From Clostridiales bacterium (lineage in GTDB: Bacteria > Bacillota > Clostridia > Peptostreptococcales > Anaerovoracaceae): DNA of 64,000 nucleotides. A model generated the notes under the pieces. It had not been told where the DNA came from. It searched no databases and saw only the letters and a program-made list of their open reading frames with translations. The translations under genes and the position numbers were made by a program. Where the stretch lies: the NCBI GenBank assembly GCA_012841925.1, contig DUTT01000052.1:1-64000 (forward strand). The letters are read 5' to 3'. Each line of letters begins with the position of its first letter. The first letter of the stretch is position 1. Below are positions 15,542 through 18,401 of this stretch, piece after piece.

Positions 15542-15569
15542 AAAGACCCCCGATGGCCCGGGGGTCTTT
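15542..15569 (-). terminator. intrinsic terminator after the molybdoenzyme operon
   Basis: Perfect 10-base-pair stem AAAGACCCCC / GGGGGTCTTT with an 8-base loop, ten bases after the stop of the molybdoenzyme gene. T-rich bases follow on the minus strand (TCTTTTATTAT); the plus strand also reads a T run, so it may stop transcription both ways. Confidence 0.85.
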
Positions 15570-15578
15570 GCATTTACG

Positions 15579-18401
15579 TTACGCGTCGGGAGATGACTTT
15601 CGAATGTCGACGAGATTGGAGTGCTGCGGATTTCCTTTCGCGATCGGTGTGGGCTTGTGGGTAAATGTAAGCACGTTGATGCTCCCCCGCACATCGACGC
15701 CCTTCTCGTCCGGCTTATACCAGCCTCCCTGGCTCATGGCACAGACGCCTTTCATGATGCGCGTCGTCACTTTAGCAGGGATGCGCACCGTGCCGCGATC
15801 GTTGAATACTTCCACCAGGTCTCCATCCTGTATCGAACGTTCGTTCGCATCGTACGGATGCATCCATACAGCAGGCGGATCGAGCTCTTCCATGAGCGGA
15901 TTCTGATCGTGGATCGAATGGCAGCGCCTCTTCGTGTGATAGCCCACCATTTGAAGCGGGTATTTCGCCAAGAGCGGATCTTCCGGTCCTTCGGTGAGCA
16001 GGAAGTGAATGGGAACACCGCCAATTTCCTCCGGATTGTCCAGGTCGTACAGACGCTTCGAAAAGATTTCTATTTTCCCGGAAGGCGTATTGAACGGAAT
16101 GCCCTGTTCGATGTTGTCGCGGAACGGCACGATGCATTCGTTTTCCTTATACATATAGCCGCCCTTTTTCTTGAAGGTCTCCCAGTCGGGCAATTCGGTT
16201 TCGCGCGTGCGCAGATCTTCGTAGCACGTCTCCGCCCAGCCGGCGGCATCTTCGTGTCCGTCCGTAAATTCGTCGTACAGGCCCAGATGCCGGGCAATTT
16301 CCTTAATCCACAGGTATTCGAACTTCGACTCGAATACCGGCTCGATGGCTTTATCGCAGTACAGCACGTAGTCATCGGTCGCCCACACATTGGGAATGGT
16401 CGCATTTTCGAACAGCGACGGCGCCGGAAGCACGTAGTCGGCCCACCTCGCAGAAGGTGTCATAAACAAATCCGACAGCACGATCGTTTCGCACTTGGTC
16501 GTGTCGCTCAAGATGCGCTTCGTATCGTTGATATCCGAATGTTGATTGATCAGGACGTTGCTGGACATGTTGAACAGCAGCTTGATACCGCTGGGCATGC
16601 GATCCATGTTTTTGAGGCCGTCTTCCCGCGGAGTCATCTCCTGGGGAAGGTCGATGGCTTTCGACCACAGAAATACAGGGATTTCGCCTTTAAACGGATT
16701 TTCCGGCTTGTATATTTCGGGCGGCTCCTCGTGACCCTGCGGTGTAACGGTTCCGGAAGCCCCTCCGCCCGGCACGCCGACGTTGCCCGTCATAGCCGCA
16801 AGAGCGATGGTCGCCCGGATGGCGTTTTCGCCGCCGGAAGTCCTTTGAATACCCAGACCCGGCAGAATGCAGGCCGGTTTCGCCGTCGCGTATTCGACGG
16901 CCAGCGCTTCGATCACATCTGCGGGGATACCGGTGATGCGTTCCGCCCACCGGGCATCCTTTACGATACCGTCCTTGAGACCGAACAGGTACGAATGGTA
17001 GCTTTCGCCGGCTGGAACACCTTCCGGCATGTGCTCTTCGTCAAATCCGACGCAGAACCGGTCCATAAATGCCTGATTCTGCAGACCTTTGCTGAAAATA
17101 ACGTGCGCCATCGCGTTGGCCAGCGCGATATCACCGCCCGGTTTAATCGGAATCCACTGATCCGCCATGGACAGCGCCGATTCGCTCTGCCTCGGGTCGA
17201 TGACGATGATTTTAACGCCCGCTTCCTTCGCTTTCATCAGATAATAATTTCGAAATGGTCCGATGATTGTCTCAGCCGTGTTGTGACCCCACATGATGAT
17301 CAATTTCGAATTCATCACGTCGGATACATGGCCGGCGCTGCGCAAATCTCCGAGCACATACGGCGTAATGTAGTTGGAACACGCGCTGCTGTAGGAGTTG
17401 TAGTGCGCTAAAAATCCGCCCTGCTGAATCAACAGCCTCTTGATGCAGTGATCGCCCCTCGTCACCGTACAGGTCCCGGTGCCGTAGATGACATAGCGCG
17501 ATGCGGGTCCGTACAGTCGCATCGTTTCGTCCATTTTAGCAGCGATTTCCTCCGCCGCCTGTTCCCACGTAATTCGCTCGTATTTGCCAATTCCGCGATC
17601 TTCCCGGCGCTTCATGGGATAGCGAAGCCTTCTGGACGTCAGGAACGTGTGACGGTATCCCCTGCCCCTCGGGCAGGCGCGCAGATGGAGAGGATCCTCG
17701 GGATCGGGTTCGGCCGAATCTAAAAACAGCACGCAGCCTTCCTGCACGATCGTCTCCAGCTTGCAGTTGCCTCCGCAGTTGTTGACACCGGCAGTTTTGA
17801 CAGTCCTCGCCGGCTCGACCGGTATTTCTTCGTTTCTCTCCCAGGAAGCGCTGTCGAACGATGCGACAAGATTCTCTGAATTGTCGACAGGATCTACATC
17901 TCTGCGCACAAAACGCTTCAACTGATCGCAGACATCCAGCACATCCTCGTGAATATCGGTAATGCGCCCTATAGCTTTACATAATTCTTTTACGGTATCC
18001 AATAAGAATTCGTCGATAAACTGTTCGATCGCTTCGTCGCAATCTCCCCCTGAGCGTTGGCTGCACACCGTCAGATATTCGATAAAACGTAGCTGTTCGC
18101 CGATAAAGTCGGCAGGGTTGCCGTCCATGCGTACGGGAGTGTATCCATATTTCTTATAGAATTTGATGACCGAAAGCGTCGTGTCATCGAGCAGAATATC
18201 GCCTTTTCCCTTGCAGGCAGAAGCCCACAGCGGAATGTAGATGTCTGCATCCGTTCCCTTAAACAGATCGTCATAGGCCTGCTGCTGCAGATCGGAAGGC
18301 TTTCCGGCCTGTTCCCGGTCGGATTTCCACTGCTCCAGATCCTCAAAAAACATCCGCAGCATGTGCGCATGATAGATTTGAGACGCATAGCTGTTGTTCA
18401 T
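15579..18401 (-). CDS. DmsA-like molybdopterin oxidoreductase with N-terminal TorD-type chaperone domain
   Basis: 940 residues in one uninterrupted frame. Residues 1 to ~165 look like a TorD/DmsD maturation chaperone: helical, with FYKKYGYTPV and the family motif PADFIGEQLRFIEYL (96-110). After a linker (about 166-204) comes a DMSO-reductase-family catalytic subunit close to E. coli DmsA: RACPRGRGYR, RLRYPMKRREDRG, ITWEQAAEEIA, FNMSSNVLINQHSDIN and the C-terminal GGWYKPDEKGVDVRGSINVL. The likely Mo ligand is Ser338 in HYNSYSSA, as in DMSO reductases; there is no Cys or selenocysteine. Of the four Cys ligands of the first [4Fe-4S] cluster, only Cys209, Cys213 and Cys243 are present; the first is Gly205. 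No Tat signal, so it should act in the cytoplasm. Substrate unknown. ATG overlaps the flavoprotein stop (ATGA). Confidence 0.88.
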   Translation of the reverse strand: MNNSYASQIYHAHMLRMFFEDLEQWKSDREQAGKPSDLQQQAYDDLFKGTDADIYIPLWASACKGKGDILLDDTTLSVIKFYKKYGYTPVRMDGNPADFIGEQLRFIEYLTVCSQRSGGDCDEAIEQFIDEFLLDTVKELCKAIGRITDIHEDVLDVCDQLKRFVRRDVDPVDNSENLVASFDSASWERNEEIPVEPARTVKTAGVNNCGGNCKLETIVQEGCVLFLDSAEPDPEDPLHLRACPRGRGYRHTFLTSRRLRYPMKRREDRGIGKYERITWEQAAEEIAAKMDETMRLYGPASRYVIYGTGTCTVTRGDHCIKRLLIQQGGFLAHYNSYSSACSNYITPYVLGDLRSAGHVSDVMNSKLIIMWGHNTAETIIGPFRNYYLMKAKEAGVKIIVIDPRQSESALSMADQWIPIKPGGDIALANAMAHVIFSKGLQNQAFMDRFCVGFDEEHMPEGVPAGESYHSYLFGLKDGIVKDARWAERITGIPADVIEALAVEYATAKPACILPGLGIQRTSGGENAIRATIALAAMTGNVGVPGGGASGTVTPQGHEEPPEIYKPENPFKGEIPVFLWSKAIDLPQEMTPREDGLKNMDRMPSGIKLLFNMSSNVLINQHSDINDTKRILSDTTKCETIVLSDLFMTPSARWADYVLPAPSLFENATIPNVWATDDYVLYCDKAIEPVFESKFEYLWIKEIARHLGLYDEFTDGHEDAAGWAETCYEDLRTRETELPDWETFKKKGGYMYKENECIVPFRDNIEQGIPFNTPSGKIEIFSKRLYDLDNPEEIGGVPIHFLLTEGPEDPLLAKYPLQMVGYHTKRRCHSIHDQNPLMEELDPPAVWMHPYDANERSIQDGDLVEVFNDRGTVRIPAKVTTRIMKGVCAMSQGGWYKPDEKGVDVRGSINVLTFTHKPTPIAKGNPQHSNLVDIRKSSPDA

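Follow-up and report, generated by a model that had tools for sequence, protein, structure and literature searches.

A TorD/DmsD-type chaperone domain joined in frame to a DmsA-type molybdoenzyme in anaerobic bacteria

The window, a stretch of 64,000 nucleotides from the genome of a Clostridiales bacterium, encodes a single protein in which an N-terminal TorD/DmsD domain is joined in frame to a DmsA-type catalytic subunit. We are fairly confident that the fusion protein serves as catalytic subunit in a soluble NAD(P)H-driven complex of the DMSO reductase type in the cytoplasm, with the chaperone acting in cis. With slightly less assurance, we place it in a molybdoenzyme clade that carries the chaperone as a permanent domain and that probably arose with a shift from Tat-exported, quinol-linked to cytoplasmic, NAD(P)H-linked function, with loading, proofreading and catalysis on one polypeptide; the fusion in one other genome (G134) would be separate.

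Results

Fusion gene and TorD domain

The reading frame begins with an ATG at 18401, ends with a stop codon at 15579 and encodes 940 residues with zero internal stops (Table 1). Both FYKKYGYTPV and PADFIGEQLRFIEYL are found in it. The linker between the two parts sits where an unfused DmsA would start after its signal peptide. The AlphaFold2 model of the full-length protein, computed with 42 homologues, has a pLDDT of 92.1 and a pTM of 0.91, and the alignment across the TorD–Mo junction is conserved among homologues.

Table 1 Features of the fusion gene and its surroundings in the window
Feature	Position	Strand	Basis
TorD-DmsA fusion protein, 940 aa	15579..18401	minus	Single ORF; Pfam and NCBIfam domains; AF2 model
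TorD/DmsD-fold chaperone domain, aa 1-186	17844..18401	minus	PF02613; domain model; VIA-align to DmsD 3efp, Z 14.7
GNPxD(Y/F)xG motif, aa 94-101	18099..18122	minus	Alignment of 45 N-domains
Short linker, about aa 187-195	17817..17843	minus	Boundary from model secondary structure and aligned ranges
DmsA/YnfE-type catalytic part, aa 196-940	15582..17816	minus	PF00384, PF01568, TIGR02166
Fe-S ligand region, C209, C213, C223, C243	17673..17777	minus	Alignment
S338, presumed Mo-ligand serine	17388..17390	minus	Alignment
FAD/NAD(P)H oxidoreductase (Pyr_redox_2, NirB-N/NorW-like), 399 aa	18398..19597	minus	ORF, Pfam, NCBIfam
DmsB-like ferredoxin subunit, 189 aa	19590..20159	minus	TIGR02951; Cys count
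GC-rich hairpin and T-rich DNA	15546..15572	minus	Read directly from sequence

The original prediction, that the first ~165 residues resemble TorD/DmsD, is borne out by both profile and fold. The N-domain matches Pfam PF02613 (NarJ/TorD/DmsD family) over residues 38–137 with an E-value of 1e-8 (35.8 bits against a cut-off of 22.2), and the same profile is matched by 45 of 45 aligned homologous N-domains (E <= 0.01). When the full-length model was compared with the PDB, molybdoenzymes filled the list, which was therefore uninformative on the N-domain. For this reason, the N-domain was folded alone (pLDDT 95.2). The nine best PDB entries for this model are all redox enzyme maturation proteins (REMPs; Z 12.5–14.7), led by E. 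coli DmsD (3efp_A, Z 14.7, rmsd 2.7 over 157 residues) and including 3cw0 (Z 14.5), 1s9u (14.1), TtrD (2xol, 13.6) and YcdY (9m26, 13.3), so that the domain has the all-helical TorD fold and not some other one. The first unrelated fold appears at Z 6.5, and the gap rules out a plain helical bundle mistaken for TorD. The REMP family also ranks first with Foldseek alone, with weak E-values (about 0.01–0.1), and a single-sequence phmmer search of the N-domain against PDB sequences is weak as well (DmsD, E 0.7).

Nine N-domain residues are invariant (Y43, W59, S61, L70, G94, N95, P96, D98 and G101). In the profile alignment, W59 falls on the PPWGS segment of DmsD and P96-x-D98 on the EPxDH segment. 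W59 is the equivalent of DmsD W87, a known signal-peptide-binding residue (PMC5203670). The GNPxD(Y/F)xG motif is the equivalent of EPxDHxG in DmsD; its P, D and G are invariant, and its histidine is replaced by Tyr or Phe in 45 of 45 sequences. The replacement would fit a relaxation of signal-peptide recognition, and the function of the fused TorD domain may have changed.

Catalytic part

A DmsA-like catalytic subunit follows in frame, as had also been proposed. It scores 800.4 bits against TIGR02166 (DmsA/YnfE; cut-off 777.7), a model that itself takes in selenate reductases, and a second fused paralogue in the host genome scores 785.9 bits. Against TIGR00509 (BisC-type), the catalytic part lies far below the cut-off. 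Its best structural match is TorA (9h4t_A, Z 43.2, rmsd 2.4 over 703 residues); DMSO reductases match as well. S338 is invariant across 65 fused and 26 other aligned rows, and we take it to be the Mo ligand from what is known of the DMSO reductase family.

The cysteines of the Fe-S site are rearranged. Instead of the C-x3-C-x3-C-x27-C motif of DMSO reductases, the fused clade has C-x3-C-x9-C-x19-C. The canonical first cysteine (position 205) is missing in 64 of 65 fused rows, and C223 (window 17733-17735), ten residues past C213, is a cysteine in 65 of 65 fused and 0 of 26 other sequences. On the simplest reading, C223 would be a relocated fourth Fe-S ligand. Several unfused members above the TIGR02166 cut-off also lack the first cysteine; thus its loss does not rule out DmsA/YnfE membership. 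As the cysteine is already gone from several of the nearest unfused enzymes, the loss probably came before the gain of C223.

Operon partners

The FAD/NAD(P)H oxidoreductase gene lies directly upstream of the fusion gene and overlaps it by 4 bp; the upstream position is kept in most loci. The ends of the DmsB-like and flavoprotein genes overlap too (19590 versus 19597), on the same strand as the fusion gene. The DmsB-like subunit contains 16 cysteines in four groups of four and matches TIGR02951 best (161.9 bits, below the cut-off of 214.1). Just past the fusion stop codon, the hairpin is likely the terminator of a three-gene operon. No DmsC anchor (PF04976) is present in the operon, in the host genome (G000) or in six relatives.

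In the fused clade, the operon usually also encodes a DmsB-like protein of the 4x[4Fe-4S] type and a flavoprotein of the NAD(P)H type. Among 72 loci, 11 encode FAD-TorD-Mo proteins of about 1356 residues, 4 encode FeS-TorD-Mo proteins and 3 have the FeS and FAD parts fused to each other. These rearranged fusions suggest a single working complex of FeS, FAD, TorD and Mo parts. In about a dozen loci, the flanks are long enough but show no recognisable FAD or FeS partner, indicating that this electron donor is not universal in the clade.

MobA-like genes lie within the flanks of 21 of the 72 loci. MobA was not detected in the host genome (89% complete); a genome of the same genus (G037) has a match. 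At the DSM 17811 locus, genes resembling moeA and moaC (assigned by eye) follow the fusion. The fused gene of [Clostridium] asparagiforme DSM 15981 (L051) comes after selD-like and cysteine-desulfurase-like genes, again by eye, which suggests a shared Mo/Se maturation cluster. Erysipelotrichaceae loci (L072:6087-7921, L075:8789-11132 and similar) contain MobA fused to a P-loop NTPase (NTPase_1), adjoining a membrane protein of the PF09819 type and a small protein that looks secreted and has no Pfam match; this cluster may perhaps serve uptake of molybdate, a cofactor precursor or the substrate. Contexts differ between clades, and the neighbouring genes gave no lead to the substrate.

Distribution and phylogeny

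In the host family, six of 99 genomes carry the N-domain, in frames of 922–976 residues and one frame cut by a contig end. The host genome has two copies; both of its PF00384 proteins are fused, and it has no others. The second paralogue (L116:3891-6689; G000:C29:160890-163688, minus; 932 residues from the first ATG) adjoins a ketol-acid-reductoisomerase-like gene and is convergent with a membrane ferredoxin (Fer4_5) gene, which stands in place of the FAD/FeS pair.

A scan of 84,980 species genomes returned 72 loci in Spirochaetota and in Bacillota (Clostridia, Lachnospiraceae, Oscillospiraceae and Erysipelotrichaceae); most come from rumen, gut and termite-gut metagenome assemblies, and a few from isolates. 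The TorD and Mo parts share one frame in 71 of them, and the fusion is found in the complete chromosome of DSM 15981 and in the isolate Clostridium sp. DSM 17811. Among 398 sampled genomes of the phylum, nearly all PF02613 domains stand alone (about 160–300 residues); frames longer than 900 residues contain the two of the host and just two more.

A tree of 91 Mo domains gathers the 65 fused rows in one group (SH-aLRT 100) that is nested among unfused DmsA sequences and distinct from the unfused DmsA rows belonging to the same phylum. The N-domain served to find the fused rows and a sampled search the unfused ones, and the clade may hold unfused members as well. The survey across genomes thus returns one conserved fusion clade.

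Genome G134 (L114:4496-7573) encodes a TorD-DmsA fusion of 1025 residues with a canonical EPDDH motif, a DmsB-like gene downstream and TatC. It is placed among the unfused rows with moderate support (87) and looks like a separate event. A Treponema genome encodes a stand-alone relative of the fused TorD domain (L071:5857-6648; 263 residues, hydrophobic N-terminus), with no molybdoenzyme within 6 kb. In genome G031 (L082:1354-3053), a PF02613 domain is joined to a C-terminal Fer4_22 ferredoxin domain in a protein of at least 566 residues, adjoining a DmsB-like gene and an unfused Mo subunit.

Tat system and signal peptides

The original prediction described a cytoplasmic enzyme without a signal peptide, and both points are supported. 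The Tat motif is absent from the N-terminus of the window protein. SRRxFL-type signals are present in 20 of 25 unfused proteins; among 64 fused proteins, none has a signal that is credible. The host genome and 13 relatives lack TatC, which is also absent from 33 of 35 further carrier genomes, including those with the DSM 15981 and DSM 17811 loci. Of 21 genomes whose DmsA-type enzymes fall outside the clade, G134 included, 20 have TatC. Counted over unique genomes, TatC is found in 2 of 40 carriers (and so is missing from 38) versus 19 of the 20 genomes whose DmsA-type enzymes are unfused (Fisher p about 2e-12, for genomes that are not phylogenetically independent and many of which are incomplete).

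All PF02613 domains in the host and 35 carriers lie in fused frames, with no stand-alone TorD. TorD exists solely within the fused enzyme in these carriers; therefore, the fused chaperone is not an addition to an existing set. Altogether, the architecture, distribution and cytoplasmic location of the fused enzymes are well supported. The minus strand, the operon partners, the alternative fusions, the correlation with Tat loss and the relocated Fe-S cysteine go beyond the original prediction.

Discussion

We infer chaperone activity in cis, the electron path and the substrate class from these observations. The ancestor would have been a Tat-exported, DmsD-assisted enzyme of the DmsA type that lost its signal peptide in anaerobes without Tat, and the chaperone would have become covalently attached at the signal peptide's former place. 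TorD is known to bind the TorA core, to promote insertion of the cofactor (bis-MGD) without a signal peptide and to contact MobA (reviewed in PMC10609526). The fused TorD domain may likewise protect the apo-enzyme, hold it open and promote bis-MGD insertion in cis, and it may remain bound once the enzyme is mature. NAD(P)H would reduce the FAD protein, which would hand its electrons to the DmsB-like subunit with its four [4Fe-4S] clusters; from there they would reach the catalytic subunit's own Fe-S cluster and then the bis-MGD Mo held by Ser338, with an S-oxide, N-oxide or similar compound as the final acceptor. An S- or N-oxide is the default substrate suggested by family membership. The FAD and DmsB-like partners are adjacent, and in some lineages fused on, which argues for one stable complex.

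The main rival to the cis-chaperone model is a purely structural TorD domain, one that is no longer a chaperone and has become a permanent structural or docking domain of the mature enzyme (an FeS/FAD platform or a lid, for instance), retained because the enzyme had turned into a soluble complex of several subunits. The replacement of the EPxDH histidine in every aligned N-domain (45/45) would fit, as would the fusion of the modules in several orders with TorD always beside the Mo domain, and the full-length pTM would suggest a fixed arrangement. However, W59 (the counterpart of DmsD W87) never varies, nor do P and D in the motif; the TorD domain is retained in loci without FAD or FeS genes, and more than a quarter of loci (21/72) have MobA-like genes nearby; we consider a purely structural role unlikely. 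Far less probable is a role in trans, in which the TorD domain would help other molybdoenzymes and its fusion would be just a means of co-production. Three carriers (G037, G046 and G050) do encode further unfused molybdoenzymes, but the only two PF00384 proteins of the host are both fused, and each fused paralogue has its own TorD domain. Most loci come from metagenome-assembled genomes, which could raise the suspicion that a sequencing, assembly or frame error has joined two genes. Such an artefact, to which we give next to no weight, is ruled out by the fused state of 71 of 72 other, independent loci, including the DSM 15981 chromosome and DSM 17811, together with the conserved junction alignment and the confident model.

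A different question is what the enzyme reduces. It is conceivable, although we would not favour it, that the enzyme is another reductase of the family (a dehydroxylase, say, or an oxyanion reductase), with the same cis maturation; this alternative is not exclusive of the cis-chaperone model. In its favour, sequence alone does not specify the substrate, and paralogues adjoin a ketol-acid-reductoisomerase-like or a mandelate-racemase-like gene. Against it stand the score above the TIGR02166 cut-off (though the model includes selenate reductases), the serine ligand, and TorA and DMSO reductase as the nearest solved folds. The literature on urolithin and catechol dehydroxylases, checked for a candidate function, offered no link.

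The fused system resembles E. coli DmsABC with DmsD (and YnfEFGH) in its TIGR02166 catalytic part, its putative four-cluster, DmsB-like subunit and its DmsD-fold chaperone. In E. coli, however, DmsD is separate and acts on the Tat signal peptide, whereas in the fused clade the chaperone is covalent and the signal peptide is lacking. DmsABC is an exported complex that DmsC anchors to quinol; the fused system has an NAD(P)H-type flavoprotein in the anchor's place and no DmsC. BisC-type S/N-oxide reductases belong to the DMSO reductase family and, like the fused enzyme, are cytoplasmic and have no Tat signal, but they have no fused chaperone and no DmsB-like or FAD partner. NarG/NarJ provides a cytoplasmic molybdoenzyme with a chaperone of the PF02613 family; unlike the fused domain, NarJ is separate and transient, and NarGHI is membrane-bound and nitrate-specific. 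E. coli TorA/TorD shares the TorD fold and the catalytic fold, and its TorD engages the core of the enzyme and takes part in inserting bis-MGD (PMC10609526), but TorA works in the periplasm, lacks an Fe-S cluster and depends on maturation in trans.

It had been stated that no characterised enzyme is built in this way. In the open-licence papers searched, we found no natural fusion of a complete molybdoenzyme with a TorD domain, in agreement with that statement, but NarX of M. tuberculosis is a partial precedent. NarX includes a NarJ-like part together with an incomplete NarG part and a membrane NarI part, and we know of no demonstration of nitrate reductase activity for it. Unlike the window protein, it is not a complete catalytic subunit. 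It has been called a 'fused nitrate reductase', a natural fusion related to the NarGHI subunits (PMC7759655). The parts of the window protein belong to known families; as far as our searches show, their arrangement, the altered cysteines and the association with Tat loss have not been described.

A current debate is whether the main target of TorD-type chaperones is the Tat signal peptide (proofreading) or the core of the enzyme (cofactor loading). On this question, the fused enzymes amount to a natural experiment: with no signal peptide and no Tat, what the fused chaperone domain still does must be the core function. A structure of the chaperone–molybdoenzyme interface on the enzyme core is still sought (PMC10609526), and the covalent complex is a stable sample for solving it. 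The clade points to a soluble, as yet uncharacterised reductase in anaerobes of the rumen, gut and termite gut, in which the fusion probably turned an exported respiratory enzyme into an internal, NAD(P)H-driven one.
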